From Acetohalobium arabaticum DSM 5501 (GTDB lineage: Bacteria > Bacillota > Halanaerobiia > Halobacteroidales > Acetohalobiaceae): DNA of 64,000 bases. Below, piece by piece: positions 40,130-58,316 of the stretch (position 1 is the first letter of the stretch; every line of letters begins with the position of its first letter). The stretch spans positions 1,090,781-1,154,780 of the forward strand of contig NC_014378.1 in NCBI RefSeq assembly GCF_000144695.1, written 5' to 3'. The position numbers and the translations under genes were made by a program. The notes under the pieces were generated by a model. The model made no database searches. It was not told the origin of the DNA and was given only the letters and a program-made list of their open reading frames with translations.

Positions 40130-41323
40130 ATGGAGAATATACCGGAAATAAATTTAACTTCGGATCTTGCCCAAAAGATTGTAGACCGAACAATGGAAAT
40201 ATTGAACTATAATATAAATATTAGGGATTATAACGGAAGGATTATTGCTAGTGGAAACCAAAAGAGAATAGATACTATCAGTGAGATGGCAGCGCAGGCA
40301 ATTAAAGAAGAGGAAGTCTTAACAGTATCTAAACAGAAGGCTGAAGGAGATTCAGGTATGGAACCAGGCATTCAATTACCTATCTATTTTAACGGAAAGA
40401 TTATGGGGGCAGTTGATATTACTGGAGAGCCTAAAAGAATAGAAAAGTATGGCGGGTTAGTTAAAATGACAGTAGAGTTGATGTTACAACAGGCTTTCTA
40501 TTTGAAGAAATTACAGTTAGAGGAACAGGCGGAGGAACACTTTATTAAGGAATTATTGAATAAAAATTCAGAGCTTTCTAATGCTAATATACAGGATAGA
40601 GCACAAGTAATGGGGTACGACCAAAGACGCTCATATTTGGTAGCTATTCTTGAACTGACGAATCTCTGGGATAAGTTATTGGAAAATGTAGGGGATACAA
40701 GTAGTATGAAATTACAGCAGTATAAGATAAAGATTCAAGAGGGAATTCAAGAACTTTTTTACAACCAGTCAAGTGTTAAAGTTTTTCACTTAGATGGAGA
40801 AAGATTTATTATTTTAAAGTGTGAAGCTAATGATGACCTGAAAAATAAGGAAGATTTATTGGAGCTAGGTACGAATTTAGTCGGTAAACTGGATAAAAGA
40901 TTTAATTTTGATTGTAAACTTGGTATCGGCAAAATTAATCAGGGGTTAAGAGGAATTAGAAAGTCTTTTGAAGAGGGATTGGAGGCTTTGGATTTAGGAA
41001 TAAGGTTTTATCCTACTAAACAGGTTCATTATAGTGGGAATTTAATTCAGGAACGGATAGTTGAGAATTTAGCTCCGGAGGTTAGACAGGATTTAGCTGA
41101 GATATTTCCTCTAGATGATCAATATCAGCAGAGTTTAGAAGTCTATTTTGCTTCCAATTTAAATGTCAGTAAGACAGCTAACAAGTTGTGTCTGCACCGT
41201 AATTCGGTAATGTATCGGTTAAACCGAATAACTGAGATTACAGGTTTTGATCCTAGAGATTCAGAAGATATGGTAAATTTAAAGTTGGCTTTATTATGTT
41301 ATAAATTAGAAAGTTCCAATTAA
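40130..41323 (+). CDS. CdaR-family transcriptional regulator (sugar-diacid/PucR type)
   Basis: 397 residues. N-terminal putative diacid-recognition domain (about 1-135, SDLAQKIVDRTMEILNYNIN and PIYFNGKIMGAVDITGEP), a central GGDEF-like domain, and a C-terminal PucR/CdaR helix-turn-helix (SNLNVSKTANKLCLHRNSVM, YRLNRITEITGFDP). Relatives activate catabolic operons in response to small carboxylates. Its place at the head of the amine/betaine island makes it the prime candidate regulator of the downstream operons. RBS GAGAGGAG. Ligand unknown. Confidence 0.85.
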   Translation: MENIPEINLTSDLAQKIVDRTMEILNYNINIRDYNGRIIASGNQKRIDTISEMAAQAIKEEEVLTVSKQKAEGDSGMEPGIQLPIYFNGKIMGAVDITGEPKRIEKYGGLVKMTVELMLQQAFYLKKLQLEEQAEEHFIKELLNKNSELSNANIQDRAQVMGYDQRRSYLVAILELTNLWDKLLENVGDTSSMKLQQYKIKIQEGIQELFYNQSSVKVFHLDGERFIILKCEANDDLKNKEDLLELGTNLVGKLDKRFNFDCKLGIGKINQGLRGIRKSFEEGLEALDLGIRFYPTKQVHYSGNLIQERIVENLAPEVRQDLAEIFPLDDQYQQSLEVYFASNLNVSKTANKLCLHRNSVMYRLNRITEITGFDPRDSEDMVNLKLALLCYKLESSN

Positions 41324-41355
41324 TAGATTAATTGGTGATTAGTAATAAAAATTTA

Positions 41356-41439
41356 TGCAGATGAATAAAAAATCTTGTTATTTAGATTGTAAAATTTGTC
41401 ATTTTGCTAATTGATTTAATAAATAATAACATATATAAT
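41356..41439 (+). promoter_or_regulatory. Island promoter P1 with conserved upstream block
   Basis: TGCAGATGAAT (41356-41366), then TTGATT (41411-41416), 17 bp, TATAAT (41434-41439). The same block with the same 55-bp offset and the same 17-bp spacer occurs at 52571-52654 before grdX. The matching stretch includes interspersed conserved bases between the block and the -35. Confidence 0.7.
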
Positions 41440-41980
41440 GACAGTAAGATGAAATGATAAAACATTATAAAGATTTAGAACTTTATGAAATTATCAAAAA
41501 AGTGTATATAATTTATAAAAAAATTATACTAAAAATTTGCTATAGAATAAAGATATTATAAGTAATTAAAAGTTGATTCAAAGACAGTAATTGTTACTAC
41601 AATATATTTACTATTTCACTTCGAAATTAACTTGCCGCAATTTTCTTTAATACATTAACTAGTATACTGACGTTAAGTTGTCTTTTCTGAAAATAAATAG
41701 CTTTTTCATATTGTCATATCTAAACTTTCTCCTACATTTCCGTCTAGCTTTATATAATTTTTTAAATCTCCAATGTGCTTATTAGCCAATTAATGATTTT
41801 TTATAATTAAGTAGTTTATATTCTTCTGGTTTCTAATTTTCATAATTTAATAATTATTCAAAAAATTAATCCAAATAGTCAATAACAGCTAATTATGATT
41901 ATTTTAAAATTATAATTAACTATTATTAAATACTTTGTTGCAACAACTAAAAATCACTTTATAAATAAGGGGAGGATAAA
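41440..41980 (+). other. AT-rich 540-bp region before the first MttB-family gene
   Basis: If P1 is used, this is a very long untranslated leader. It is strongly AT-rich. A second possible promoter, TTGCAA (41938-41943), 16 bp, TATAAA (41960-41965), lies next to the GGGGAGG ribosome site and includes the palindrome TGTTGCAACA. No open frame of note; an antisense fragment around 41700-41770 has a protein-like reading (DLKNYIKLDGNVGESLD) but is interrupted by stops. Confidence 0.5.
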
Positions 41981-43399
41981 ATGATTAAACGTAATACTTT
42001 AGCTGGGGATGTTTTATCCGATAATGATGTAAAGATGATTCATCAGGAGTCACTGCAGTTATTAGAGGAAACCGGCGTAGAGATTATGCATGAAGAGGCT
42101 TTGGATATTTTTGAGGACAATGGAGCTAAGGTGGAAGGTAAGCGGGTTTACTTATCTGCGGAGTTGGTTGAGGATGCACTGGATCAAGCTCCTACTTCTT
42201 TTACTTTACATGCTAGAAATTCAGACAATGATGTAGTAATTGGAGGGGGTAATTCGGTTTTAGCACCTGGATATGGTTCTCCATACGTGACAAGTATAGA
42301 TGAGAGTAGACGGGATTCAACTTTTGAGGATTATAAGAATTTTACTAAATTAGCTTCGGTCAGTGAGAATATCGATGTACTTGGTGGTGTATTAGTTGAA
42401 CCGACAGATTTAGATGATAAAATTAGACATGTTAAGATGCTTTATGCAGCAGCAAAGTATTCTGATAAGTGTTTAATGGGTAGTGCCTTAGGAGCCAAGA
42501 AGGCACGTGAATCTTTTAAAATGGCAAGTATACTTTTTGGTGAAGATGAGATTATTGATGATAGGCCAATTACGATGAGTTTGATTAATACCATGAGTCC
42601 TTTACAGTATGATAATAGAATGGCTGATGCGTTGATAGAACATGCCAGATATAATCAAGCAGCAGTAATTGCTTCTTTGATTATGGCTGGTTCAACAGGT
42701 CCTATGTCCATTGCTGGTACACTTGTTTTGCAGAATGTGGAGGTCCTAACCGGTATTGTTCTGGCGCAGATGGTTAATTCCGGTGCTCCAGTAGTTTATG
42801 GTTCAGCTTCAACTATTATGGATATGAAAGCAGCAAGTTTAGCTGTAGGTAGCCCTGAGTATGCGAAATTTATAGGAGCTACATCACAGTTAGCTCGTTA
42901 TTATGGATTGCCTTCTAGGGCTGGAGGATCAATTACTGATTCAATTATGGTTGATACTCAAGCTGGCTATGAAGCAATGATGATGTTTATATCTTCAATT
43001 AATCACGGTATTAATTTCGTTCTTCATTCTGCTGGATTACTGGAAAATTATATGACGATGTCCTATGAGAAATTTATTATAGATGATGAAATATTGAGTA
43101 TGGTAACCAATTATCAGGCGGGTATTGAAGTAAATGAGGATACAGTGGCTACTAAAGTAATTGATGATGTAGGACCAAGCGGCCATTATCTTCAAGAACC
43201 TCATACATTACAGCATATGGAGGATTTTCGGGAACCTGAAATCAGTAATCGGGCTGGTTATACTTCTGATAATGATTTAATTCCTACTGTTGAGCGGGCT
43301 AATGAAAAATGGAAAGCAATTTTAGCAGATTTTGAATCGCCTTATCTTGATTCTGTTATTGAACAGAAATTAACTGATTATATAGAGGAATTAAAATAA
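41981..43399 (+). CDS. MttB-family corrinoid methyltransferase, paralogue 1 (non-pyrrolysine)
   Basis: 472 residues. The family TIM-barrel is seen in SFTLHARNSDNDVVIGGGNS and ALGSPEYAKF-like blocks, GLPSRAGGSITDSIMVDTQA, and a C-terminal EVNEDTVATKVIDDVGPSGHYLQEP quoted in part: EVNEDTVATKVIDDVGPSG. The region where TMA methyltransferases use a UAG pyrrolysine is read straight through with no in-frame TAG. It is therefore of the MtgB-like class, whose studied member demethylates glycine betaine. The most diverged of the three paralogues here. Next gene is the BCCT carrier. Substrate inferred as a quaternary amine. Confidence 0.88.
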   Translation: MIKRNTLAGDVLSDNDVKMIHQESLQLLEETGVEIMHEEALDIFEDNGAKVEGKRVYLSAELVEDALDQAPTSFTLHARNSDNDVVIGGGNSVLAPGYGSPYVTSIDESRRDSTFEDYKNFTKLASVSENIDVLGGVLVEPTDLDDKIRHVKMLYAAAKYSDKCLMGSALGAKKARESFKMASILFGEDEIIDDRPITMSLINTMSPLQYDNRMADALIEHARYNQAAVIASLIMAGSTGPMSIAGTLVLQNVEVLTGIVLAQMVNSGAPVVYGSASTIMDMKAASLAVGSPEYAKFIGATSQLARYYGLPSRAGGSITDSIMVDTQAGYEAMMMFISSINHGINFVLHSAGLLENYMTMSYEKFIIDDEILSMVTNYQAGIEVNEDTVATKVIDDVGPSGHYLQEPHTLQHMEDFREPEISNRAGYTSDNDLIPTVERANEKWKAILADFESPYLDSVIEQKLTDYIEELK

Positions 43400-43506
43400 G
43401 GATTAAGGAGGTGGTTGCCAAAATAAGTAATTAAAAAAGGGGTTGGAGATATCGGCTTAAGAGATAAGCGCAGCAATAAAATCTAAAAAAAGGAGCGATT
43501 TAGAAA

Positions 43507-45072
43507 ATGGCTCAACCTGAAAAAGAAGTAGAAGAGCGGGTACATAATTCAGAAAAGAAGATTGATCCAATTGTTTTTTGGATATCAGCTGTTATTTCCG
43601 GAGTTTTAATTATCTGGGGAGTAGTTGATAATGCCGGATTTGGAGATGTTGTTAATGCTGTGTTTGACTTTTTAGTCGGTAATTTTGGCTGGTCTTACCT
43701 CTTATTTGTATCAGTAGTATTAGTGGCAACAGTTGTAGTCGGATTTACTAGACTTGGAGATATTAAGTTAGGTAAGCCGGATGATGAACCGGAATTTAGC
43801 ACTCGATCTTGGATTGCAATGTTATTCAGTGCTGGGATGGGAATTGGACTTGTCTTCTGGGGTGTAGCAGAACCAGTTATGCATTATGCAAGTCCGCCTT
43901 TTGGTGATGGAGAGACTGCTAGATCAGCTATGATAGCTGCTCGCTATTCATTCTTCCATTGGGGTTTACATCCTTGGGCGCTGTATTCTTTCTTTGGTAT
44001 GGTGCTGGCCTACTTTGGTTTCAGAAGAGGGTTGCCTCAATTACCTAGTTCTACTCTTTATCCCTTAGTAGGAAAAGAAGGAGTCAAAGGATTCTGGGGT
44101 AAAGCCTTCGATATTTTAGCTGTATTTGCTACTTTATTTGGGATTGCTACTTCCTTAGGTTTAGGGGCGCAGCAGATTAACAGCGGCCTTCATACTTTAT
44201 TTGGAATTCCTAATAATACAATGATGGCTTTAGCAATTATTATCGTGGTAACTATAGCCTTTGTCATTTCTGCAGTTACTGGTTTAGATAAAGGAATCAA
44301 GATTTTAAGTAATATTAATATTACTTTAGGTTCTTTACTAATAGTATTAATGTTTATTGGCGGACCGACAGTATTTATCCTTGATTATCTTACTCAGGGA
44401 ATTGGCGGTTTATTCCAGAATTTCTTTGATATGAGCTTCTTTACTAGTCCAGTAGAGCAGAGTCCTTGGCCTGGCTGGTGGACAATCTTCTATTGGGCCT
44501 GGTGGATTGCCTGGACACCTTTCTGCGGCGGTTTTATCGGCCGAATCTCAAAAGGGCGTACCATTAAAGAATATGTCTTAGGAACGCTATTTTTACCATC
44601 AGTTATCGGCTTTGTCTGGATAGCAACAATGGGTGGTTCTGCTATCTGGATGGAACAGTTTGGCGCTGGAGGTATTGTAGGACCGGTTCAGAATGATGTA
44701 GCTTCTGCTTTCTTTGTCTCATTAGGTAAGTTTCCACTTGGTACTTTCATGTGTATGATAGCAACAGTTTTAATCAGTACTTTCTTTATTACTTCCGCTG
44801 ACTCTGGAACTTTTGTTATGGGAATGCTGACATCTCATGGAACTTTAGAACCTAAAACTGGAGTTAAAGTTACTTGGGGAGTACTTGAAGGATTCATTGC
44901 TGCCGTCTTACTCTTGGCTGGAGGATTATCTGCTTTACAGACAGCTTCAATTGCTGGGGCTTTTCCTTTTATGATCTTTATGGTCTTTACAGTATTTGCT
45001 TTCTTTAAAGCACTGAAAAAGGATAGAGATATGCTTGCTCAGGGAGAATTTATTGGTGAATTAGATTGGTAA
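43507..45072 (+). CDS. BCCT family betaine/carnitine/choline transporter
   Basis: 521 residues, 12 predicted helices. Signature region WTIFYWAWWIAWTPFCGGFI followed by GRISKGRTIKEYVLG, plus SAGMGIGLVFWGVAEPVMHY. These mark Na+- or H+-coupled carriers of quaternary amines. Placed among MttB-like and corrinoid genes it probably supplies the betaine-type substrate; it may also serve osmoprotection. The RBS AAAGGAG is 12 bases from the ATG, a long spacing. Followed by a hairpin. Confidence 0.93.
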   Translation: MAQPEKEVEERVHNSEKKIDPIVFWISAVISGVLIIWGVVDNAGFGDVVNAVFDFLVGNFGWSYLLFVSVVLVATVVVGFTRLGDIKLGKPDDEPEFSTRSWIAMLFSAGMGIGLVFWGVAEPVMHYASPPFGDGETARSAMIAARYSFFHWGLHPWALYSFFGMVLAYFGFRRGLPQLPSSTLYPLVGKEGVKGFWGKAFDILAVFATLFGIATSLGLGAQQINSGLHTLFGIPNNTMMALAIIIVVTIAFVISAVTGLDKGIKILSNINITLGSLLIVLMFIGGPTVFILDYLTQGIGGLFQNFFDMSFFTSPVEQSPWPGWWTIFYWAWWIAWTPFCGGFIGRISKGRTIKEYVLGTLFLPSVIGFVWIATMGGSAIWMEQFGAGGIVGPVQNDVASAFFVSLGKFPLGTFMCMIATVLISTFFITSADSGTFVMGMLTSHGTLEPKTGVKVTWGVLEGFIAAVLLLAGGLSALQTASIAGAFPFMIFMVFTVFAFFKALKKDRDMLAQGEFIGELDW

Positions 45073-45074
45073 AG

Positions 45075-45100
45075 AAAGTGTAACTATTTTGTTACACTTT
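45075..45100 (+). terminator. Hairpin after the BCCT gene
   Basis: AAAGTGTAAC (45075-45084) pairs perfectly with GTTACACTTT (45091-45100). The T run is within the stem end, so termination may be partial, with the corrinoid genes downstream. Confidence 0.6.
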
Positions 45101-45309
45101 GTTGATAGCGTAGGAATTGTCTAATTATTGGTTAAAATATAAGATAAAAATAAAGATTTAAATAGAAATTTGTGATAAGAGATACATTATATTAAATCAA
45201 ATTTATAAAAAGAGGGGGGTTGCGATTGCTGAAGGAGAAAGTATGAGATTTAAATTGAAATTAATTATTAAGTATTAAGTATTAATTAACTAAGGAGGGG
45301 GAATAATCA

Positions 45310-45942
45310 ATGGCAGATTTTGAGGAGTTAAGTAATAGTGTAATTGAAGGTAATGAAGAAAAGGTAGTTGAATTAACTCAAGAGTTAGTCGATGATGGAT
45401 TAGAGCCTAAAGAAATTATTCGTCAGGGATTAATTGGTGGAATTAATGTAGTAGGGCAGAGATTTAAAGATGGAGATATGTTTATTCCTCAGGTTATGAT
45501 GGCAGCAGAGTCTATGAAATCAGGAATGGAGATTGTTAATCCTCTACTAGCAGAAGGAGAGAGTTCTTCTGTAGGGAAAGTAGTTTTGGGAACAGTAGCT
45601 GGTGATTTACATGATATCGGTAAGAACTTAGTGGGAATGATGATGGAAAGTGCCAGTTTAGAAGTTATAGATTTAGGTGTAGATATAGATCCGGAAGAAT
45701 TTGTAGAAGCAGTGAAAGAGAATAACCCGGATTTATTGGGTATGAGTGCTTTATTAACAACAACTATGTTAGAGATGCAGAATACGATAGAACTTTTAGA
45801 AGAAGAAGGACTGTTAGATGGACTCAAGATTATGGTTGGCGGTGCTCCAGTAACACCAAATTTTGCTGATGAGATCGGTGCTGATCGTTGGGCTCAGGAT
45901 GCTGCAGCGGCTAAAGAAGCGGCGTTGGAATTAATCGAGTAA
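45310..45942 (+). CDS. Corrinoid protein, MtgC/MttC type, copy 1
   Basis: 210 residues. An N-terminal helical cap (EELSNSVIEGNEEKVVELTQ) is followed by a cobalamin-binding Rossmann domain with DLHDIG (histidine ligand for base-off cobalamin) at about residue 101, LLGMSALLTTTM and MVGGAPVT. It carries the methyl group from an MttB-like methyltransferase to MtgA. The nucleotide sequence is nearly identical to the copy at 47453. AAGGAGGGGG upstream of ATG. Between the transporter and MttB paralogue 2. Confidence 0.92.
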   Translation: MADFEELSNSVIEGNEEKVVELTQELVDDGLEPKEIIRQGLIGGINVVGQRFKDGDMFIPQVMMAAESMKSGMEIVNPLLAEGESSSVGKVVLGTVAGDLHDIGKNLVGMMMESASLEVIDLGVDIDPEEFVEAVKENNPDLLGMSALLTTTMLEMQNTIELLEEEGLLDGLKIMVGGAPVTPNFADEIGADRWAQDAAAAKEAALELIE

Positions 45943-45973
45943 TTTTTAATATCTTTTGGAAGGAGAGATAGTT

Positions 45974-47431
45974 ATGGAGAAAATGGTAAGGAGTAATTCA
46001 GTTGTTAATAAGTCGGTTAATTATTCTACCTTGAGTGAAAAGGAAAGAGAGAGAATTTTCTATGCAGCGCTCGAAATTTTGGAAAGAACTGGTGCTGTGG
46101 TCCATGACGAGGAGACATTGGATGTTCTTGAGGATGCAGGCTGTTGGATTGAAGATGGCAATCACGTTAAGATTCCTTCTGGCGTAGCTCAGGATGCAGT
46201 TAAGTCAGCACCTGAACGGGTGGTGTTTTATGATCGAAATGGTAATCCAGCTATTCATGCTGAAGGAAACAACAGCTATTATGGACCGGGACCTACTAAT
46301 AATTACCATAAAGATCCTTGGACTGGTGAGCGACGGGAGCCGTGTAAGCAGGATAGTGCTAATGTAGCTAAAGTTTGTGACTATCTGCCTAATATTGATT
46401 ATGTTATGGACTTAGGAACTGTTAAAGATGTACCAGCTCAGTTATCTGATGTTCATGCTTATCATGCTATGGTTAAGAATACTACTAAGCCTATCTTTCA
46501 CTGGGGCTTTGATATTGAGCAGTATCAGGCTATCATCGATATGGCAGCTACAGCAGTTGGCGGTCTTGATAAATTACAAAAGAAACCGACTTTAGCTCTT
46601 TATGCTGAGCCTACTCCACCGTTGATTCATTCAGAAGAAGGGATTGCAAAATGTGTTCATGCTGCTAAATATGACTTACCTGATATTTATACACCTTGTG
46701 TTATGGCTGGCGGTTCAACACCAGCAACATTGGCTGCTACTATAGCTACTGGTATTGCTGATAGTATAGTCGGTTTAGTTGCTAATCAGCATGTAAATGA
46801 AGGTAGTCCGTTTATTCTCGGTGGAGTTTATACAATTATGGATATGAAGAGTACAATCTTCTCTTATGGAGCACCTGAATTTTTAGCATTACAAGCTGGA
46901 ATTGCTGAAGTTGCTCATTACATGGGAATTCCAGTCTTTGGTACTGCCGGTTGTACTGATTCTTGTACCTTAGACGGACAGGCAGCAGGAGAGTCTGCTA
47001 TGAGTATCTTAATTAGTGCTTTAGCAGGGGCTAATGTAATTCACGATGTTGGTTATACTGAATATGCATCTACAGGCTCTTTATATCAGTTAGTGATGGG
47101 TGATGAAGTAATCGGTATGGTCAAGCAGTATACTAATGGAGTTGAGGTTAATGAGGATACTTTAGCCCTAGATGTAATAGATGAAGTCGGACCTGGTGGC
47201 GATTACAGTGGACATTCCCATACTAAAGAGCATTTAGAAGACTTCTGGACTCCTGATTTAATTGATCGAATGAAGCGAGAAGATTGGGAAAAAGATGGTC
47301 AAGAGATGGGAGATAAGATTATAGCTAAGACGCAGAGGATTCTTGAAGAATATGAGCCAGAGCCTCTCGAAGATGAAGTTGTAGAAGAATTGGATAGAAT
47401 AGCTGAAGAAGCAGAAGAAAAGTATCTGTAA
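45974..47431 (+). CDS. MttB-family corrinoid methyltransferase, paralogue 2 (non-pyrrolysine)
   Basis: 485 residues from the ATG at 45974, supported by AAGGAGAG; an in-frame ATG at 45956 lacks a good site. Blocks: YYGPGPTNNYHKDPWTGERR, HWGFDIEQYQAIIDMA, VFGTAGCTDSCTLDGQAAGE and EVNEDTLALDVIDEVGPGGD. No in-frame TAG. It belongs to the MttB superfamily. It lies between the two corrinoid genes and so could use either. Substrate may be glycine betaine, dimethylglycine or carnitine-type compounds. Confidence 0.9.
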   Translation: MEKMVRSNSVVNKSVNYSTLSEKERERIFYAALEILERTGAVVHDEETLDVLEDAGCWIEDGNHVKIPSGVAQDAVKSAPERVVFYDRNGNPAIHAEGNNSYYGPGPTNNYHKDPWTGERREPCKQDSANVAKVCDYLPNIDYVMDLGTVKDVPAQLSDVHAYHAMVKNTTKPIFHWGFDIEQYQAIIDMAATAVGGLDKLQKKPTLALYAEPTPPLIHSEEGIAKCVHAAKYDLPDIYTPCVMAGGSTPATLAATIATGIADSIVGLVANQHVNEGSPFILGGVYTIMDMKSTIFSYGAPEFLALQAGIAEVAHYMGIPVFGTAGCTDSCTLDGQAAGESAMSILISALAGANVIHDVGYTEYASTGSLYQLVMGDEVIGMVKQYTNGVEVNEDTLALDVIDEVGPGGDYSGHSHTKEHLEDFWTPDLIDRMKREDWEKDGQEMGDKIIAKTQRILEEYEPEPLEDEVVEELDRIAEEAEEKYL

Positions 47432-47452
47432 ATATTAAGGGGGGAATGATCG

Positions 47453-48085
47453 ATGGCAGATCTTGAGGAGTTAAGTAATAGTGTAATTGAAGGTAATGAA
47501 GAAAAGGTAGTTGAATTAACTCAAGAGTTAGTCGATGATGGATTAGAGCCTAAAGAAATTATTCGTCAGGGATTAATTGGTGGAATTAATGTAGTAGGGC
47601 AGAGATTTAAAGATGGAGATATGTTTATTCCTCAGGTTATGATGGCAGCAGAGTCTATGAAATCAGGAATGGAGATTGTTAATCCTCTACTAGCAGAAGG
47701 AGAGAGTTCTTCTGTAGGGAAAGTAGTTTTGGGAACAGTAGCTGGTGATTTACATGATATCGGTAAGAACTTAGTGGGAATGATGATGGAAAGTGCCAGT
47801 TTAGAAGTTATAGATTTAGGTGTAGATATAGATCCGGAAGAATTTGTAGAAGCAGTGAAAGAGAATGACCCGGATTTATTGGGTATGAGTGCTTTATTAA
47901 CAACAACTATGTTAGAGATGCAGAATACGATAGAACTTTTAGAAGAAGAAGGACTGTTAGATGGACTCAAGATTATGGTTGGCGGTGCTCCAGTAACACC
48001 AAATTTTGCTGATGAGATCGGTGCTGATCGTTGGGCTCAGGATGCTGCAGCAGCTAAGGAAGCGGCGTTGGAATTAATCGAGTAA
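47453..48085 (+). CDS. Corrinoid protein, MtgC/MttC type, copy 2
   Basis: 210 residues, differing from copy 1 by eye only at residue 4 (Leu for Phe) and at one Asn/Asp position near residue 141. About four nucleotide differences over 633 bp. The match continues about 30 bp past the stop into the next RBS. Same cobalamin motif DLHDIG. This implies recent duplication or ongoing gene conversion, in contrast to the diverged MttB paralogues on either side. Confidence 0.92.
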   Translation: MADLEELSNSVIEGNEEKVVELTQELVDDGLEPKEIIRQGLIGGINVVGQRFKDGDMFIPQVMMAAESMKSGMEIVNPLLAEGESSSVGKVVLGTVAGDLHDIGKNLVGMMMESASLEVIDLGVDIDPEEFVEAVKENDPDLLGMSALLTTTMLEMQNTIELLEEEGLLDGLKIMVGGAPVTPNFADEIGADRWAQDAAAAKEAALELIE

Positions 48086-48118
48086 TTTTGAATATCTTTT
48101 GGAAGGAGAGATCAGCTT

Positions 48119-49558
48119 ATGAGAAGCAGAAGTAATTATAAAGTTAATGGTTCGGCGGTTCAAGAGGTGCTGGCAGATGATCAATGTAAACAGGTTTTGT
48201 CAGGAGCTATGAAGATTTTAAAGGAGACAGGAGTTGCTTATCAAGACGAAGAAGCAGTTGAAATTTTAAAAGAAGCCGGATGTTATGTTGAGAATGGCCG
48301 CGTTTATATTCCGGTTAAGTTAGTAGAAAAGGCATTAAGAACAGTACCTTCTCAGGTAACTTTATATAATAGTAGAACAAAAGAAGCAGAACTTTATTTA
48401 GAAGGAGGTAATGCTTATTTCGGTACAGGGTCTGAAGCTCCTTGCTTCTTAGATCCTTATGAAGAAGCAATAGTAGATACTACTCAAGAGACAGTAGAGA
48501 TGGCTACTAAACTGGCTGATGCCTTACCTCGGATAGATTTTGTTATGTCCATGGGGAATATTCAGGATAAATCAGAATCAGTTCGAGATCGTTATCAGTT
48601 CTTAGCTCAGCTAGCAAATACTTCTAAACCAATTGTAACTACTGCTGTTGATAAGCAAGGCTGTGCAGATATTGTGGAGATGAGTGAAACTGTAGCAGGG
48701 GGAGCAGAAGAATTAAAACGACGTCCGTTCATGGCTCTATGTGTTAAACCGGATTCTCCTCTAAAGCCTGCTGCTGTAGATACTGAGAAATTAATGTATG
48801 CTAGTGAAAAATCACTACCTGTTACCTATACTCCTTATCTTAGTGCAGGCGCAAATGTTCCGGCTACATTAGCTGGAGCTGTAGCTGTTGGACTGGCAGA
48901 AGTACTTGCTGCTTTAGTACTTAATCAACAGATAGAAGAAGGAGCACCTTTCATTATGGGCGGTTACTTTACAATAGTTGATACAGAAAATGAAATTTGT
49001 TCTGATGGGGCTCCAGAAAGCAGTTTGATGCAGGCAGCTTTATCTGATATAGCTCACTATTTGGATATTCCGATGTTTGGTGCCTGCGGAGGTACTGATT
49101 CTAAAACTGTCGATGAGCAGGCGGCAATCGAAGATGCATTATCTATTTTAACGTCTGCTAAATCAGGTGCTAATCTAAACCATGGTATCGGCTCTATTGA
49201 ATATGGTAATGCAACAGCTTTAGAAAATCTGATCATCTGTGATGAGATGATTGGTTTTGCCCGTAGATCAATTAAGGGTATTGAGGTTAATGATGAAACG
49301 TTAGCTTTAGATATTATCCATGAAGTTGGTCCCGGCGGTCACTTTATTACTCAGCAGCATACTATGGATAACTTCCAGAAGGAAACTTGGTATCCTGATC
49401 TATTCCAGCGGAAGAATTATGTTGACTGGGAAGATGAAGGCAAGAAGACTTTAACTGACCGGGCTCACGAGAAAGCCTTAGATATCCTTGAAAGCCATGA
49501 ACCGGATGGATTAGATGATGAAATGATAGAAAAATTAGAAGCAATTGTTGAAGAATAA
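48119..49558 (+). CDS. MttB-family corrinoid methyltransferase, paralogue 3 (non-pyrrolysine)
   Basis: 479 residues. ILKETGVAYQDEEAVEILKE, YFGTGSEAPCFLDPYEE, MFGACGGTDSKTVDEQAAIE and EVNDETLALDIIHEVGPGGH are family blocks. No in-frame TAG in the catalytic region. Closer in layout to paralogue 2 than to paralogue 1. AAGGAGAG upstream. Last methyltransferase of the group, followed by a hairpin before the ASKHA ATPase gene. Confidence 0.9.
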   Translation: MRSRSNYKVNGSAVQEVLADDQCKQVLSGAMKILKETGVAYQDEEAVEILKEAGCYVENGRVYIPVKLVEKALRTVPSQVTLYNSRTKEAELYLEGGNAYFGTGSEAPCFLDPYEEAIVDTTQETVEMATKLADALPRIDFVMSMGNIQDKSESVRDRYQFLAQLANTSKPIVTTAVDKQGCADIVEMSETVAGGAEELKRRPFMALCVKPDSPLKPAAVDTEKLMYASEKSLPVTYTPYLSAGANVPATLAGAVAVGLAEVLAALVLNQQIEEGAPFIMGGYFTIVDTENEICSDGAPESSLMQAALSDIAHYLDIPMFGACGGTDSKTVDEQAAIEDALSILTSAKSGANLNHGIGSIEYGNATALENLIICDEMIGFARRSIKGIEVNDETLALDIIHEVGPGGHFITQQHTMDNFQKETWYPDLFQRKNYVDWEDEGKKTLTDRAHEKALDILESHEPDGLDDEMIEKLEAIVEE

Positions 49559-49583
49559 ATTAATTTTATTGATTTATCAAGTT

Positions 49584-49612
49584 AGAGGATGGTTTATTCC
49601 ATCCTCTGCTTC
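49584..49612 (+). terminator. Hairpin between MttB paralogue 3 and the ASKHA gene
   Basis: AGAGGATGG (49584-49592) pairs with CCATCCTCT (49599-49607), 9 bp perfect. The downstream sequence is not T-rich, so partial termination or RNA processing is possible. Confidence 0.55.
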
Positions 49613-49677
49613 TAACTTATAGATAGGACTGAATTGAAATTAGTTGTTGGTCCATCAGTTCTGAAGGGGGCCTACTT

Positions 49678-51648
49678 ATGTCAGTAACACTAGGGATTGA
49701 TACTGGAGGAACTTATACTGATGGAGTAGTAATGGACTTAGATGAAGGTAAGATTTTTGCAGAATCCAAGGCGCTTACTACTCGTCGGGATCTTTCAATA
49801 GGTATTAATGAATGTATTGATAATCTTGAAGAAATAGATTTCAGCGATATTAAAATGGTATCGTTATCCACAACTTTAGCAACTAATGCTACTGTGGAAG
49901 GACAGGGTTGTGAAGTAGGACTTATTTTAATTGGTTTTGAGCTTGAAGATAACTTACCAACGGAACACTATGTTAGCATTCAGGGCGGCCATGATATTAA
50001 AGGGAACCGTAAAGAAAGACTTGATGTTAAAGAAGTAAGAGAAGTAGTTAATTCTTTACAGAGCAAGGTGGATGCTTTTGCTGTTTCTGGTTATCTCAGC
50101 GTTCGGAATCCGGAGCATGAAAAGAAGGTTAAAGATATAATTCAGGATTTAACTGATTACCCAGTAGTTTGCGGCCATGAATTAACATCTTCATTAGGGA
50201 TAAGTGAACGAACGGCAACTGCTGTATTGAATGCTCGATTGATTCCGATTATAGCTGATTTAATTAATGCAGTTAAAGGAATGATGGAAGAACATAATAT
50301 CGATGCTCCTTTAATGATTGTTAAAGGAGATGGTAGCTTAGTAAGTGAAGAGGTAGCCCGGGAGAAACCGATTGAGACTATCTTATCAGGACCTGCTTCC
50401 AGTATTATTGGTTCGACTTATCTTACTGACCTAGAAGATGGAATTGTAGTGGACATGGGAGGTACTACTACTGATGTGGCTTTATTGCAGGATGGGACTC
50501 CCAGTTTAACTGAAAAAGGAGCTATGGTTGGCGGTTGGTTGACTAGGGTTAAAGCAGTAGATATGGCTACTATCGGTATTGGAGGCGATAGTTATATTAG
50601 AGTTTCTAAAGACCATCTGCTTCAGGTTGGACCCCAGAGAGTTTATCCACTCTGTTGGGCTGTGGCACAGCATCGTTATTTGTTAGATCAATTGTTAGAA
50701 ATTGATGCTGAGGAATACTTTCCGGTTAATTCTCAACCAACAGATATTCTATTCTTTATCAAAGAACCTCTCCATATCGATTTAACAAAAACAGAGGAAC
50801 AGATATTAGAAATAATTAGAGAGAAACCCCAGTCCTTATATCATATAGGTAAAAAATTAGATAAAGACCCTAATTTATTGCGCTGGAATAGATTAGTCAA
50901 TATCGGTTCTGTTCATCGTGCTTCTTTAACTCCTACTGATCTTCTTCATGTTACAGGTAGAATGGAGGAGTGGAATGTTGAAGCTTCTAAGGTAGGAGTA
51001 AAGATTGGAGCCAGAAGATATGGTGTAGAAGTAGAGAACTTTATAAAAGATGTTGAGGAAGAGATTTATTACAAGATTGCTCTTGTAATTACTGAAATGC
51101 TGCTTAAGGATAAAAAAGTAGAATTTGATTGGAAGCAGGATTCTTTAACTGAGTTTTTACTGGAAGCAATATTTAGAGAAAATAAAGAACAGGATGAATT
51201 AATCGAGTTTTCTACCACGATTAATTTACCAATTATTGCTATTGGCGCTCCAGTAGAAGCATATTTTCCAGAAATTGCTGATAGATGTAATGCTACTTTA
51301 GAGATACCAGAGCATTCTGAAGTAGCTAATGCAGTAGGTACGGTGACTGGTAAGGTAATAGAACAGGTTGAAATTTTGGTTAAACCAGGGGCTGAAAGCG
51401 GTTATTTAGTCCATGCTCCAGGGGAAAAGAAGATGTTTAAAGAATTGGAAGAAGCAGTTGAGTTTGCTAAAGATGTAGGAGAAAAGTACGTTAGGGAAAG
51501 AGCTAAAAGGTCGAAGGTTACTGATCTTAAAGTTAATATAGAGCATGAAGATGTATATAGTAGTTTTTCTCAATTAGAAGATAAGGATGACTTATATCTC
51601 GAGAGTAAAATTAAGGTAGTAGCTATGGGAAGACCTGAGTTGAATTAA
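49678..51648 (+). CDS. Hydantoinase/oxoprolinase-like ASKHA ATPase, possible corrinoid activator
   Basis: 656 residues. Phosphate-binding motifs GIDTGGTYTDGVVM at the N-terminus and VVDMGGTTTDVALL near 260 mark the hydantoinase/oxoprolinase ASKHA fold. There is no second-subunit gene as in hydantoinases. Such proteins are common in MttB clusters and may reactivate oxidised corrinoid proteins by ATP, by analogy with RamA/RACo. No iron-sulfur cysteine motif is seen, so it would need a partner reductase. RBS AAGGGGGCC with start at 49678. Confidence 0.75.
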   Translation: MSVTLGIDTGGTYTDGVVMDLDEGKIFAESKALTTRRDLSIGINECIDNLEEIDFSDIKMVSLSTTLATNATVEGQGCEVGLILIGFELEDNLPTEHYVSIQGGHDIKGNRKERLDVKEVREVVNSLQSKVDAFAVSGYLSVRNPEHEKKVKDIIQDLTDYPVVCGHELTSSLGISERTATAVLNARLIPIIADLINAVKGMMEEHNIDAPLMIVKGDGSLVSEEVAREKPIETILSGPASSIIGSTYLTDLEDGIVVDMGGTTTDVALLQDGTPSLTEKGAMVGGWLTRVKAVDMATIGIGGDSYIRVSKDHLLQVGPQRVYPLCWAVAQHRYLLDQLLEIDAEEYFPVNSQPTDILFFIKEPLHIDLTKTEEQILEIIREKPQSLYHIGKKLDKDPNLLRWNRLVNIGSVHRASLTPTDLLHVTGRMEEWNVEASKVGVKIGARRYGVEVENFIKDVEEEIYYKIALVITEMLLKDKKVEFDWKQDSLTEFLLEAIFRENKEQDELIEFSTTINLPIIAIGAPVEAYFPEIADRCNATLEIPEHSEVANAVGTVTGKVIEQVEILVKPGAESGYLVHAPGEKKMFKELEEAVEFAKDVGEKYVRERAKRSKVTDLKVNIEHEDVYSSFSQLEDKDDLYLESKIKVVAMGRPELN

Positions 51649-51679
51649 AATAATAACACAACAGGGAGGCAAGAATTTA

Positions 51680-52477
51680 ATGATAATTATTGGTGAATTA
51701 ATTAACACAAGTAGGGAAGAGGTTGAACCGGCTGTTAAGGATAGAGATAAAGAATTTATTCAGGAGCTGGCCAAAAAGCAGGAGGAAGCAGGAGTAGATT
51801 ATGTAGATGTTAACTGTGGAACATTAATTAGAGAGGAACCAGAAGCCCTGGAGTGGTTAGTTGAGACAGTACAGGAGGCTGTCGATGTACCGCTCTGTAT
51901 TGATAGCCCTGATCCTAAAGCTATTAAACAAGGATTGGAAGCCCATGAAGGTAAAGCCTTAGTTAATTCTATTACTGCCGAAGATGAAAGATATGATGAA
52001 GTTCTGCCATTAATTAAGGAGTATGATGCCAATATAGTGGCTTTGGTTATGAATGATAACGGTATGCCTGATGATGCTACTGATAGAATAGAGGTGGCTA
52101 CAGAGCTTGTTGATAACTTACTTGAAGATGGAATTCCGGCTGAGGATATCTTTGTTGACCCAATTATTCAGCCAATAGGTACTGATAGTGAAATGGGAGA
52201 ACATATTTTAAATGCAGTTGAGGAGATTTCTTCTAAGTATGAAGATATCCATATCACCTGCGGTTTAAGTAATATCTCTCATGGGCTACCACAAAGACAG
52301 CTTTTAAATCAAGCTTATTTGGTCTTAGCTATGAGTAGAGGTATGGATAGTGCTATTTTGGATCCATTAGATGAAAAGATTATGTCTCTAGCTCAAGCTT
52401 CTGATACTTTACTGGGCAAGGATCAGTACTGTAGTGATTATATTAAAGCATCTAAGAGTGGTGACTTAACTGTTTAG
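51680..52477 (+). CDS. mtgA: Methylcorrinoid:tetrahydrofolate methyltransferase (MtgA type)
   Basis: 265 residues of the pterin-binding TIM-barrel family: IIGELINTSREEVEPAVKDR, VDYVDVNCGTLIREEPEALE, PLCIDSPDPKAIKQ, ITCGLSNISHGLP and the AMSRGMDSAILDPLD end. These match MtgA/MtvA-type enzymes moving methyl from the corrinoid protein to THF. With MtgB-like and MtgC-like genes it completes the demethylation route. RBS GGGAGGC. Followed by a palindromic hairpin. Confidence 0.88.
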   Translation: MIIIGELINTSREEVEPAVKDRDKEFIQELAKKQEEAGVDYVDVNCGTLIREEPEALEWLVETVQEAVDVPLCIDSPDPKAIKQGLEAHEGKALVNSITAEDERYDEVLPLIKEYDANIVALVMNDNGMPDDATDRIEVATELVDNLLEDGIPAEDIFVDPIIQPIGTDSEMGEHILNAVEEISSKYEDIHITCGLSNISHGLPQRQLLNQAYLVLAMSRGMDSAILDPLDEKIMSLAQASDTLLGKDQYCSDYIKASKSGDLTV

Positions 52478-52491
52478 TGTCCTTAGTCTTA

Positions 52492-52535
52492 TTATAATCT
52501 CCTTGGGCTAGTCATATAGTCCTGGGAGATTATAA
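52492..52535 (+). terminator. Hairpin after mtgA
   Basis: TTATAATCTCC (52492-52502) pairs perfectly with GGAGATTATAA (52525-52535). It separates the demethylation operon from the grd promoter. No long T run follows. Confidence 0.65.
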
Positions 52536-52570
52536 GTGAGAAATTGAAGATATCTCTTACTTTTATTTTG

Positions 52571-52654
52571 TGCAGATGAATGAAATGGTTTGTTGTATTA
52601 AATCGAAAAACTGTTAATTTGCCAATTGATTCATAGAAGAATAATGAATATAAT
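52571..52654 (+). promoter_or_regulatory. Island promoter P2 upstream of grdX
   Basis: TGCAGATGAAT (52571-52581), TTGATT (52626-52631), 17 bp, TATAAT (52649-52654). Same elements and same offsets as P1 at 41356-41439. A start near 52661 leaves about 85 nt to the grdX GTG. Confidence 0.7.
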
Positions 52655-52746: not shown

Positions 52747-53121
52747 GTGAAATACTTCATTTTAAGTAATAATCCTATAGTGAGAGAGAACTTTGAACAG
52801 GTCTATTTTGTGAAGGTATCAGTTAAAGAGCTGTTAATTAAAGTGAGGAATTTAGTTCATAAAGGCCATGAACTAATTACCCATCCTTTGCCGGCGAGTA
52901 TGAAGATAATGTCTTCACCCTTTAGATCTATAGTATTAAGCAAAGATAAACAACAAAGAGTGGATGCTTTCCAGGTGGAGGTGATAGAGGAGAGTATCTT
53001 TAAGTTAAGATACCATATTCAGCAGCAGAGTATAGATAATGATAATGATGATGACTATCAAATGTTAGACTATCGTTTGCTACGAAGTGCTTTAGAAAGC
53101 AGTAATAAGATTGCGCTATAA
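52747..53121 (+). CDS. grdX: GrdX family protein
   Basis: 124 residues starting with GTG (KYFILSNNPIVRENFEQVYF; VHKGHELITHPLPASMKIMS). GrdX is a small protein of unknown role found at the head of glycine-reductase operons, here 13 bp before the Grd B-component gene. No catalytic motif visible. First gene after promoter P2. Confidence 0.85.
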   Translation: MKYFILSNNPIVRENFEQVYFVKVSVKELLIKVRNLVHKGHELITHPLPASMKIMSSPFRSIVLSKDKQQRVDAFQVEVIEESIFKLRYHIQQQSIDNDNDDDYQMLDYRLLRSALESSNKIAL

Positions 53122-53143
53122 ATATTTTTAGGAGGTGACTGTT

Positions 53144-54430
53144 GTGAAGCTTGAATTAGAAAAGATTGAAATTGAAGATATCCAACTTGGCAATGAAACG
53201 TATGTCGAAGATGGAGTATTGACCGTCAATGAAGAAGAGTTAGTTTCACTGTTAAAGGAAGATAATAGAATTGAAGGAGTTTCTCTTGATGTAGCTAAGC
53301 CAGGAGAAAAGGTAAGAATTATACCGGTTAAGGATGTAATTCAGCCTAGATTCAAAGTGGAAGGAGAAGGACAAGGCTATCCTGGTGTGACTGATAAGAT
53401 GGCTGGAGTAGGAGATGGTGTGACTAAAGTATTGGATGGAGCAGCAGTAGTAACTATTGGTGAGATTGTTGGTATTCAGGAAGGGCTTATTGATATGTGG
53501 GGTGAAGGGGCAGATTATACTCCTTTTTCCAAAACTAATAACTTAGTTGTGGATATTACGCCTGTTGATGATTTGTCAGGGCATGATCATGAAGAAGCAG
53601 TCCGATTAGCTGGGTTGAAAGCCGGAAAATATTTAGGAGCGGCAGGTGAAAAGGTGGAGCCAGATAAGACAGAAGTTTATGAGATGAATTCTATGGCTGA
53701 GAATATAGAAGATTATCCGGATCTACCGCGAGTAGCTTATATAGAAATGATGATCTCCCAGGGGCTGTTGCATGATACTTATATTTATGGTGTTGACTCT
53801 AAAGAAATTTTGCCGACTTTAATTCATCCAAATGAAATTTTAGATGGAGCGATGGTCAGCGGTAACTGTGTAGCTGCTTGTGATAAGATAACAACCTATC
53901 AGCATCAGAATAATTCAGTAGTTTTGGATCTTTATGACAAACATGGTGAAGAGATCAACTTTATGGGGGCAATATTAACACCAGAATTAGTAACGCTTGA
54001 AGGAAAGACAAGATCATGTAAGTATGCTACCAATATAGCTAAGATGTTGGGAGCAGAGGGAGTTGTTATTTCCGAAGAGGGATATGGTAACCCAGATGCT
54101 GATTTAGTTCAGAATTGTAAGTTTCTAGAAGATGATGGAATCAAGACAGCTTTAATTACTGATGAATGTGCTGGAAGAGACGGTATGTCTCAGTCTTTAG
54201 CTGATGCTAATTCAGCAGCTAAGGCAGTAGTCAGTACTGGTAATGTAAGCCATCCAGTTGAACTTGCTCCGGCTGAAAAAGTAATCGGTAATGAAGAAGT
54301 AATTGCTAATTTATCTGGAGGCTCTGAAGAGAGTTTAGGTGAGGACGGAAGCATAGTTTGTGAATTAAATGCAGTAATTGGTTCAACTTCTGAAATCGGT
54401 TATCATTCTGTAACTGCAAAATCATATTAA
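53144..54430 (+). CDS. grdI: Glycine/betaine/sarcosine reductase component B, alpha/beta proprotein
   Basis: 428 residues. Component B binds the substrate; this precursor is cleaved at an internal cysteine to leave a pyruvoyl group. The expected site is seen at Cys242 in GNCVAACDKITTY. The protein is the GrdE/GrdG/GrdI family. I call it GrdI (betaine) because of the BCCT and MtgB context, which is inference. The GTG at 53144 follows GGAGGTG; an upstream GTG overlaps that site. Confidence 0.85.
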   Translation: MKLELEKIEIEDIQLGNETYVEDGVLTVNEEELVSLLKEDNRIEGVSLDVAKPGEKVRIIPVKDVIQPRFKVEGEGQGYPGVTDKMAGVGDGVTKVLDGAAVVTIGEIVGIQEGLIDMWGEGADYTPFSKTNNLVVDITPVDDLSGHDHEEAVRLAGLKAGKYLGAAGEKVEPDKTEVYEMNSMAENIEDYPDLPRVAYIEMMISQGLLHDTYIYGVDSKEILPTLIHPNEILDGAMVSGNCVAACDKITTYQHQNNSVVLDLYDKHGEEINFMGAILTPELVTLEGKTRSCKYATNIAKMLGAEGVVISEEGYGNPDADLVQNCKFLEDDGIKTALITDECAGRDGMSQSLADANSAAKAVVSTGNVSHPVELAPAEKVIGNEEVIANLSGGSEESLGEDGSIVCELNAVIGSTSEIGYHSVTAKSY

Positions 54431-54451
54431 TTCAGGAAGGGAGGATATATT

Positions 54452-55759
54452 ATGTCTCAAAAGTTTAAAGTTGTATATTATTTAAATCAGTTTTTTGGCC
54501 AGGTCGGCGGTGAAGACGAAGCAGATATCGAGCCATTTACTGAGGAAGGGCCAGTAGGACCTGCTCAGGGCTTTGAAGGTATGTTAGAGGACGGAGAAGT
54601 AGCTGGTACTGTTATATGTGGTGATAATTATTTTAATGAGAATTCGGAAGCTGTAGATACTGTATTGGAAATGATTAACGAATATGATCCTGATGTTGTA
54701 GTAGCTGGTCCAGCTTTTAATGCTGGTCGCTATGGTATGGCCTGTGCTGGGGTCTGTAAAGCAGTAGCAGAGGAGTTAGGAATATCTGTTGTGACTGGTA
54801 TGTATGAAGAAAATCCCGGTTTAGATGTCTGTAAAGAGATTGCTTATGTTGTCGAGACAGCAGATTCAGCTGCAGGAATGCGAGACGCACTGCCAACTAT
54901 GGCTAATATCGTTGATAAATTGGTAAGTGGTAAACCATTAGGTCCGCCTGAAGAAGAAGGATATATTCCTCAAGGGAGAAGAAAAACTGTTTTCTCCGAT
55001 AAACGAGGTTCACTGCGGGCAGTAGAAATGCTTATGGCGCGATTGAATGGAGAAGAATTCGAGACTGAGCTATCGATGCCAGAGTTTGATGATGTAGATC
55101 CAGCAGATCCAGTAGAAGATATTACCGAAGCAACAGTAGCATTAGTTACCAGCGGAGGTATTGTGCCGGGAGATAATCCAGATCAAATAGAATCAGCCAG
55201 TGCAACTAAGTTCGGCTGTTATTCCATTGAGGGAGTTAATGATCTCAAAGAAGATACAGATTATATTACAATTCACGGTGGTTATGATCCTGTTTATGCT
55301 AATGAAGACTGTAATAGAGTAGTACCTTTAGATGTACTGAGAGATCTAGAAGAAGAAGGTGCTGTTGGTAATATTCATGATAAATACTATGTAACAACAG
55401 GTACCGGAACTGCGGTAGCCAATGCAGAAGAATTTGGCGAAGAGATAGGTGAAGAATTGAAGAATGACGGCGTGGATGCAGTTATCTTAACTTCTACATG
55501 AGGAACCTGTACTCGTTGCGGTGCAACGATGGTAAAAGAGATTGAACGGTATGGAATTCCAATTGTTCATATGGCAAGTATTATTTCCATTTCTCAGTCT
55601 GTAGGAGCAAATAGAATTGTTCCTTCTATAGCAATTCCCCATCCAGTCGGGAACCCAGATCTTGGTCTGAAAGAGGAAAAGGAACTAAGAAAAAGCATGG
55701 TTGAAAAAGCACTAGAAGCTTTGACTACTGAGATAGAGGATCAGACTATCTTTGAATAA
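54452..55759 (+). CDS. grdH: Glycine/betaine/sarcosine reductase component B selenoprotein
   Basis: 435 residues with selenocysteine at position 350: the frame continues through TGA (55499-55501) as [16 protein letters not shown], a UxxCxxC-type motif typical of GrdB/GrdF/GrdH. Upstream: [14 protein letters not shown] and [17 protein letters not shown]. Downstream: [20 protein letters not shown] and [14 protein letters not shown]. The 75 codons after the TGA are therefore part of this gene. It is the selenol partner of the pyruvoyl subunit. Betaine specificity is inferred only. Confidence 0.9.
55499..55535 (+). promoter_or_regulatory. Candidate SECIS element of grdH
   Basis: Directly after the UGA, CGTTGC (55514-55519) pairs with GCAACG (55523-55528) around a GGT loop; flanking ACC/GGT may extend the stem. 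Position and apical GGU fit bacterial SECIS hairpins that bind SelB. Confidence 0.7.
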
Positions 55760-55772
55760 AGGAGGAGATAAA

Positions 55773-56240
55773 ATGTTAGAAGGAAAGAAAGTAGCAATTA
55801 TTGGTGATCGTGATGGAATTCCTGCTCCTGCAATCCAAGAATGCATAGAAACAACAGGAGCTGAAGTAGTTTTTGGTTCAACTGAATGTTTCGTGTGAAC
55901 AGCTGCAGGAGCTATGGACCTGGAAAATCAAAAGAGGATCCAAGAGTTAGCTGAGGAACATGGAGAAGAAAACTTAGTAGTAATCTTAGGTGGTGCAGAA
56001 GCAGAAGCTTCTGGTTTAGCAGCTGAGACTGTTACTAATGGAGATCCTACTTTTGCCGGTCCATTAGCAGGGGTCCAGTTAGGACTCAGAGTTTATCATG
56101 TAGTAGAACCAGAGATTAAAGACGAAATTGATGAGGATGTCTATGAAGATCAGATAAGTATGATGGAAATGGTTCTCGAAGTTGATGATATTGTTGAAGA
56201 AGTTAAGAAATATAGAGAAGAGTATTGTCAGTTTATATAA
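55773..56240 (+). CDS. grdA: Glycine/sarcosine/betaine reductase selenoprotein A
   Basis: 155 residues with selenocysteine at position 42: the frame runs [14 protein letters not shown] through TGA (55896-55898), the conserved CxxU of GrdA. It carries the carboxymethyl-selenoether from component B to component C. The whole family sequence is present ([38 protein letters not shown]). Without recoding, only a 41-residue peptide and an orphan 3' frame would be seen. AAAGGAGG upstream. Shared by glycine, sarcosine and betaine reductases. Confidence 0.95.
55896..55918 (+). promoter_or_regulatory. Candidate SECIS element of grdA
   Basis: Just after the UGA, AGCT (55901-55904) pairs with AGCT (55910-55913) around GCAGG. 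It is short and weaker than the grdH element but in the right place. Confidence 0.5.
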
Positions 56241-56249
56241 TTTATAATT

Positions 56250-56291
56250 AGAGCTTCCCTATAAAATAAATACCTAGGGAAGCTCTTTTTA
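56250..56291 (+). terminator. Terminator after grdA
   Basis: AGAGCTTCCCTA (56250-56261) pairs perfectly with TAGGGAAGCTCT (56275-56286), followed by TTTTT. Separates grdX-I-H-A from trxB-trxA, perhaps partially. Confidence 0.88.
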
Positions 56292-56326
56292 AACTTAATT
56301 GAAAGCAATAAAGGAGGCAGTGAGGT

Positions 56327-57520: not shown

Positions 57521-57556
57521 ACCAAACTAAAATAAACTTGAAAGGGGCTGAAAATA

Positions 57557-57874
57557 ATGATTGAAGTAGACAAGGAGAATTATGAAGAGGAAGTATTAGA
57601 AGTAGAAGGACCAGTAATGGTAGATTACTGGGGAGAAGGTTGTGACCACTGTTTAGAATTAATGCCTGGAGTTGAGGACTTAGCTGAAAAGTATGGTGAT
57701 GATATGAAGTTCTGTAAGCTAAACATTAAAGGAAATCGCCGTTTAGCTATGAGCCAGCAGGTTATGGGCTTACCATCTATGGTATTCTATGTTGATGGAG
57801 AAAAGGTAGAACACTTAAGTGGCGACGACTTAACAATTGAAGAGATTGAGGAAGAGATTAAGAAGCATATTTAA
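57557..57874 (+). CDS. trxA: Thioredoxin, glycine-reductase type
   Basis: 105 residues. Its active site is GCDHC in WGEGCDHCLELMPG, not the common WCGPC; divergent CxxC motifs (GCVPC-type) are known in thioredoxins of amino-acid-fermenting clostridia with Grd. GLPSMVFYVDGEKV shows the cis-proline. It should donate electrons from TrxB to the Grd selenoproteins. AAAGGGGCTG upstream. Confidence 0.9.
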   Translation: MIEVDKENYEEEVLEVEGPVMVDYWGEGCDHCLELMPGVEDLAEKYGDDMKFCKLNIKGNRRLAMSQQVMGLPSMVFYVDGEKVEHLSGDDLTIEEIEEEIKKHI

Positions 57875-57917
57875 CATTAATTGATATCTAATTATTGTGT
57901 AATTACAGTGCATAATA

Positions 57918-58070
57918 CAGCCTGGGAAGTTTCTCCGTTCCAGATCTTTTTTCTCTCTTGCTGCTAATTGAGAATAACTTAGGTTCTCATGATTTGGAGC
58001 GAACTATTTTGAAGGTGATTAGTAACTTCGACGAAAAAATCTAGATTTCACTCCGAAACAACCCAGGCTG
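57918..58070. repeat. Intergenic repeat A, complete copy
   Basis: A 153-bp segment bounded by CAGCCTGGG (57918-57926) and CCCAGGCTG (58062-58070). Interior inverted similarity GGAGCGAA and TTCACTCC (about 57997 and 58048) can form a second stem. Its left 40 bp recur at 16824. No protein frame. The nature (structured RNA or small palindromic element) is unknown. Confidence 0.7.
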
Positions 58071-58093
58071 AAATTATAACATCATACTGCAAG

Positions 58094-58235: not shown

Positions 58236-58316
58236 ATGTTTAGTCAGTTTTTATTCTAGCGTAAGTCTGCGTCCAAAAGTGATTAATTCTTAAATAAAAT
58301 AATGGAGGTGCCAAGT

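Follow-up and report, generated by a model that had tools for sequence, protein, structure and literature searches.

Probable CdaR-type promoters upstream of two predicted betaine catabolism operons in Acetohalobium arabaticum

Gene content of the locus

The region described here belongs to a 64,000-nucleotide window (the whole stretch of DNA that was analysed) of the genome of the salt-loving bacterium Acetohalobium arabaticum DSM 5501 (contig NC_014378.1, positions 1,090,781 to 1,154,780, forward strand). A gene for a CdaR-type regulator is followed by a methyltransferase operon and by a second operon that starts with grdX and encodes a sarcosine-type reductase, and each operon is preceded by a promoter block (Table 1). 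The gene assignments of the initial annotation hold, i.e. a Diacid_rec/HTH_30 protein is encoded at 40130, an MttB family protein at 41981 and GrdX at 52747.

Table 1. Coordinates of the features within the window.
Feature	Position	Strand	Description
cdaR-type regulator gene	40130..41323	+	Diacid_rec (residues 9-142), GGDEF-like, PucR C-terminal HTH_30 (334-389)
Block 1, distal box	41352..41359	+	TTTATGCA (consensus TTTGTGCA)
Block 1 (bounds of the initial annotation)	41356..41439	+	Ungapped comparison, pattern search
Block 1, proximal box	41402..41416	+	TTTTGCTAA, fused to -35 TTGATT (41411-41416)
Block 1, -10	41434..41439	+	TATAAT, 17 bp from -35
Leader	41440..41980	+	AT-rich, 541 nt, block 1 to mttB1; possible recombination junction
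Methyltransferase operon	41981..52477	+	MttB1, BCCT betaine transporter, MtgC, MttB2, MtgC, MttB3, corrinoid reactivation-type protein, MeTr
Hairpin between the two operons	52487..52541	+	Strong; -28.7 kcal/mol, z about -6
Block 2, distal box	52567..52574	+	TTTGTGCA
Block 2 (bounds of the initial annotation)	52571..52654	+	Ungapped comparison, pattern search
Block 2, proximal box	52618..52631	+	TTTGCCAA, fused to -35 TTGATT (52626-52631)
Block 2, -10	52649..52654	+	TATAAT, 17 bp from -35
grdX and sarcosine-type reductase operon	52747..61030	+	GrdX, GrdG-like, GrdF-like (SECIS 55502-55539), GrdA, TrxB, TrxA, GrdC, GrdD

The first operon combines a non-pyrrolysine MttB, an MtgC-type corrinoid protein, MeTr and a BCCT transporter, the set by which a betaine methyltransferase operon is recognised, the substrate itself being a prediction. 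Homologous operons of relatives have a similar content (MttB1, MtgC, MttB2/3, the reactivation protein, MeTr and BCCT), and the mttB operons of relatives adjoin genes for sigma-54 activators or TetR proteins, neither of which occurs in the window. When the named genome contigs were scanned with MttB3, only distant relatives in Desulfobacterota came up, and these did not help with the promoters. The hairpin between the two operons fits two separate transcription units.

The B component of the reductase is sarcosine-like. The GrdG-like protein scores 535.7 bits against a curated NCBIfam GrdG cut-off of 780, and the GrdF-like fragment, which is cut at the Sec codon, scores 475.8 against a cut-off of 800 and 408.2 with the betaine GrdH model; the two copies that lie beside BCCT genes in the genome reach 351-357 with the GrdG model. 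The GrdG and GrdF scores lie under the curated cut-offs, so that sarcosine is no more than a likely substrate.

Two promoter blocks of the same geometry

The initial annotation had proposed that the two operons share a promoter block of about 100 bp with identical geometry, and the comparison bears this out. In an ungapped alignment 59 of 84 bases are identical between the two blocks, as compared to 24.6 on average (sd 4.3) when every offset in the window is taken and 45 of 84 for the best unrelated stretch. The blocks share the 11-mer TGCAGATGAAT, a spacer length of 17 bp and TATAAT, and TTGATT is found 55 bp from the start of either block. The conserved unit is thus real, and only its extent needs to be amended: it starts about 4 bases earlier than proposed (TTTRTGCA) and is approximately 90-98 bp long.

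Searches of the whole genome (2,469,596 bp) set the two blocks apart from other promoters. With block 1 as BLAST query, block 2 is found at E=1.3e-6, and the next match (E=0.004) is partial and lies upstream of an unrelated M23-peptidase gene. The full pattern, with TTGATT at its set distance, occurs at two sites only when up to 3 mismatches are allowed (none for the reversed-pattern control); these are the two blocks themselves, and the spread over many unrelated promoters by which the initial annotation would have been refuted was not seen. The 11-mer TGCAGATGAAT alone has 4 exact copies in the genome, 2 of them outside the blocks, so the unit to be considered is the block and not the 11-mer. 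Two candidate third copies were rejected: C1:1351109, located upstream of the M23 peptidase, and C1:382590, located within an ORF. The former resembles a sigma-H-type GCAGGAATTT element. A plasmid collection gave only weak, scattered AT-rich matches to the block, and Rfam models detected no riboswitch at block 1 or block 2.

The two blocks differ in their distance to the downstream gene. Block 2 lies 92 nt from grdX, a normal distance, and block 1 is separated from mttB1 by the 541-nt leader, in which no ORF and no terminator was found. Because block 1 is this far away, mttB1 may have a promoter that is nearer to it. The leader may also be the scar of a join.

The same promoter between cdaR and the glycerate kinase gene of relatives

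BLAST of block 2 against the genomes of the order gave only weak matches outside promoters, so a profile search was needed. The only input to the first profile (R1) was the two blocks; it produced about 100 weak matches in the 59 genomes of the class, and two of them fall exactly between a cdaR relative and a glycerate kinase gene, glxK (G009, full length, E 0.11; G004, E 0.22). Note that this link to CdaR emerged from the search itself, the regulator proposed by the initial annotation not being part of the input. The cdaR-glxK gaps of G009, G004 and G002 have the same anatomy as the blocks: TTTGTGCA, 48-50 bp, TGCyAA abutting TTGAAT or TTGAAC, a 17-bp spacer and a TATAAT-like box.

A second profile (R2), to which these three gaps had been added, found one more site in the order, directly upstream of a glycerate kinase gene (G001, E=7.6e-6). 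It also matched, over its full length, the cdaR-glxK gap of a genome from another family (G019, 21.5 bits, E=1.2e-5), with a geometry of 49 bp, TTGAAT, 17 bp and TAAACT. Neither of these sites was in the R2 training set. The final profile (R3), built from all seven sites, recovered seven strong sites in the 59 genomes (49.7-63.8 bits, next best 17.9); these are all in its own training set, i.e. independence rests on R1 and R2. Five of the seven lie upstream of glxK and the remaining two are the window blocks; four of the five are directly behind cdaR (G002, G004, G009 and G019), the fifth being that of G001. Conservation is concentrated in the distal box (98%) and in the proximal box with the -35 (89%), as compared to the middle (65%) and the spacer (60%). 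Both blocks fit the pattern of the glxK promoters, TTTGTGCA - 48..50 bp - TGCyAA|TTGAwT - 17 bp - TATAAT. The more distant cdaR loci often keep the TTTGTGCA core alone, inverted in some of them; counted on either strand it is present behind 9 of the 13 other cdaR genes, as compared to a mean of 0.16 and a maximum of 2 in the null set.

The regulator and its sensor domain

The protein encoded at 40130 is the only one in the genome with a Diacid_rec domain. It exceeds the gathering thresholds of PF05651 (154.5 bits) and PF13556 (71.4 bits), and its best NCBIfam match is PRK11477 CdaR. The cut-off of the CdaR equivalog model NF008550 is not reached (164.3 bits against 612); the model is narrow, since the G004 relative beside glxK falls below this cut-off as well (210.5 bits). 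Judged by these matches the protein is a CdaR homologue, a term that we use with no claim as to the sensing of glycerate or diacids. As in the relatives, the promoter block is found directly behind cdaR; the next gene is mttB1, no glycerate utilisation genes adjoin cdaR, and glxK is located elsewhere.

The sensor domain departs from that of the relatives. In a comparison of 14 CdaR proteins, i.e. that of the window and 13 others, seven sensor-domain positions at which all 13 others agree are changed (M32R, H51S, V57A, V77M, N82Q, V94A and G96D), and K75S and K78E are found where 12 of the 13 agree. The HTH domain has no change of this kind, and the other CdaR proteins show 0-4 such departures each. 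The predicted structure of the sensor (pLDDT about 80) has a GAF-like fold (SpoVT, DevS), with the changed residues in the strands 29-32, 80-87 and 90-98, where helix 52-60 begins and in the loop ahead of residue 80. A sequence search of the PDB returned proteins with PucR-type HTH domains and no solved relative of Diacid_rec, and the fold search with the N-terminal domain found GAF domains nearby and no close ligand-bound relative; the location of the ligand pocket relative to the changed residues is therefore putative. Since the sensor is altered at residues that all compared relatives keep, a metabolite of the betaine pathway has probably replaced glycerate as the effector. We speculate that the loss of His and Lys together with the gain of Asp and Glu would suit a shift in ligand charge, from anionic to cationic or zwitterionic. 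M32R runs against this trend.

It could also be argued that CdaR binds both promoters and that its signal is still glycerate or some related hydroxy acid, used as a proxy, the sensor changes being mere drift. The relatives of CdaR do adjoin a glycerate kinase and a GntP-type permease, much of the sensor is conserved (54-66% identity to the four closest relatives), and the genome retains a glycerate kinase gene (C1:868578; its operon also encodes a solute symporter and an M20 peptidase). However, the seven changes are at otherwise invariant positions, are confined to the sensor and in part alter charge, and no block was found in the region of this glxK, which makes continued glycerate sensing rather unlikely in our judgement.

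The identity of the binding protein is a separate question. In G001, a near-complete draft, no Diacid_rec protein was found despite the promoter upstream of glxK, meaning that cdaR was either lost or missed, or that another protein binds the promoter there. An unlinked regulator might thus bind the promoter in all of the genomes, with the adjacency of cdaR being inherited synteny and CdaR having other duties. We consider this improbable: the TTTGTGCA core is present behind most of the other cdaR genes, and in A. arabaticum the promoter has stayed with cdaR and the downstream genes have changed, glxK being left without it. CdaR as the binder has strong comparative support, short of proof.

A predicted two-operon regulon and its origin

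Returning to CdaR as the regulator, we find it quite likely that each block is a promoter of the glycerate-regulator (CdaR/SdaR) type, that the two are probably bound by CdaR, and that they respond to a new effector and induce the two operons jointly. This is in line with the proposal that one regulator, probably the CdaR-type protein at 40130, coordinates both operons; the recurrence of the promoter behind cdaR and upstream of glxK supports it. The operator would consist of the half-sites TTTGTGCA and TTTGCyAA, 48-50 bp apart, the second abutting the -35 of an ordinary promoter with a 17-bp spacer. CdaR probably binds both and would recruit RNA polymerase once its sensor has bound the effector; activation from the two boxes is expected from their positions, the proximal one in contact with the -35 and the distal one about 4.5 turns upstream. 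The DNA between the boxes is possibly bent. The predicted outcome is joint induction of the demethylation of betaine via dimethylglycine to sarcosine and of the cleavage of sarcosine to methylamine and acetyl phosphate.

To our knowledge little is known about how anaerobic betaine demethylation and the grd reductase operons are regulated, and the present prediction offers a named regulator, a defined putative operator, a two-operon regulon and candidate specificity residues. It appears that a glycerate switch, composed of regulator and promoter, was captured for the catabolism of betaine-type osmolytes and that it probably answers to another effector now. In the fuller history, to which we give an even chance, remodelling of the GAF-like sensor alone gave the activator a new class of effector, a quaternary or methylated amine (betaine, dimethylglycine or sarcosine); cdaR with its own promoter came to lie upstream of the betaine/dimethylglycine methyltransferase operon; the promoter was then copied upstream of the selenoprotein reductase operon, giving a two-operon betaine regulon; and the ancestral target was lost. 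Copying from block 1 to grdX would be the simplest course, since each block resembles the other (0.69) more than the glxK promoters (0.53-0.63) and block 1 keeps the ancestral place behind cdaR. Such a history looks like a traceable case of regulon rewiring in which the promoter and the DNA-binding domain are unchanged, the target genes are new and the sensor is changed, with the states before and after present in living relatives. The regulator might also be a natural sensor for betaine, dimethylglycine or sarcosine.

The closeness of the blocks would also be expected if block 2 were a plain, decaying copy of block 1 and the two were not regulated together, but the boxes, the -35 and the -10 are conserved while the middle and the spacer have diverged. 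In addition, the distal box of block 2 is the canonical TTTGTGCA, that of block 1 being TTTATGCA, and block 2 lies at a normal distance from grdX, so that we regard simple duplication as very improbable. A chance likeness of two AT-rich sigma-A promoters is already refuted by the genome-wide BLAST match, the restriction of the full pattern to two sites and the clear score gap of the seven-member profile, even though promoter-like hexamer pairs are not commoner in the block regions than in shuffles of those regions.

Comparison with known systems

The preferred reading, a CdaR-type switch serving betaine catabolism, can be compared to three known systems. The first is the CdaR/SdaR regulon of gamma-proteobacteria (garPLRK, gudPXD, grtP-garK). 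E. coli CdaR is a transcription activator that responds to glucarate, galactarate and glycerate (PMC4551912), and in Shewanella SdaR adjoins grtP-garK, with a candidate site (PMC2996990). The regulator belongs to the same family (Diacid_rec and a PucR-type HTH), and the relatives of the window's cdaR have the same neighbours, a glycerate kinase and a GntP-type permease (PMC2996990). In A. arabaticum, by contrast, operons for corrinoid methyltransferases and for a sarcosine-type reductase are the putative targets, and the sensor is altered. No CdaR operator sequence was given in the open literature that we found. The E. coli garP-garD gap contains one ATTGTGCA, which is too weak for a claim.

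The second is 'Ca. Formimonas warabiya' DCMF, for which the sections of the report considered here propose a route from betaine via dimethylglycine and sarcosine to methylamine and acetate, with both clusters up on betaine (PMC9768040). The pairing of demethylation and reductive cleavage put forward for our locus fits this pathway. According to the same sections the gene content is as found here, i.e. three MttB-type MTI, two corrinoid proteins, one MTII, a hydantoinase-like protein, BCCT and trxBA-grdACD-grdGF (PMC9768040); neither a CdaR-type regulator nor a common promoter is mentioned in them, whereas in A. arabaticum the operons are adjacent and have one promoter type in common.

The third comparison is with the grdX loci of G001 and G008, which are led by glycine riboswitches and have the same grdX-grdG-grdF set as the window. 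Unlike these, grdX of the window gives no riboswitch match and is preceded by the CdaR-type promoter.

Additional features of the region

A second set of the reductase proteins TrxB, TrxA, GrdC and GrdD, 98-99% identical to that of the window, is encoded elsewhere in the genome, while the substrate-specific B subunits of the two sets share only 41-52% identity. The common components have stayed alike, and the specificity subunits have drawn apart. Between the grdX operon and the methyltransferase operon lies a strong hairpin (z ~ -6) that lacks a U-run.

Within the latter operon, two corrinoid-protein genes encode nearly identical products of 210 aa each, which suggests a recent duplication or gene conversion. 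The coding sequences of MttB2 and MttB3 contain sub-threshold PYLIS_3 matches that probably reflect common mttB ancestry, and despite these matches neither gene has an in-frame TAG.

In G001, a relative of the same genus, the CdaR-type promoter precedes the glycerate kinase gene, although no Diacid_rec protein was detectable in that genome. Finally, a dispersed intergenic repeat of ~500 nt lies between gpsA and cdaR; its pieces recur in ~10 other stretches of the same genome at 70-98% identity.

Coordinates of the features (window positions unless indicated)
Feature	Position	Further position
TrxB/TrxA/GrdC/GrdD sets	56327-61030	C1 (whole genome): 2380237-2384910 (= L080 238-4911)
Hairpin	52487-52541	
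Corrinoid-protein genes	45310-45942	47453-48085
Sub-threshold PYLIS_3 matches	46952-47051	49093-49190
CdaR-type promoter in G001	L194 2274-2372	
Dispersed repeat	39421-39960	16888-17011; 58090-58239
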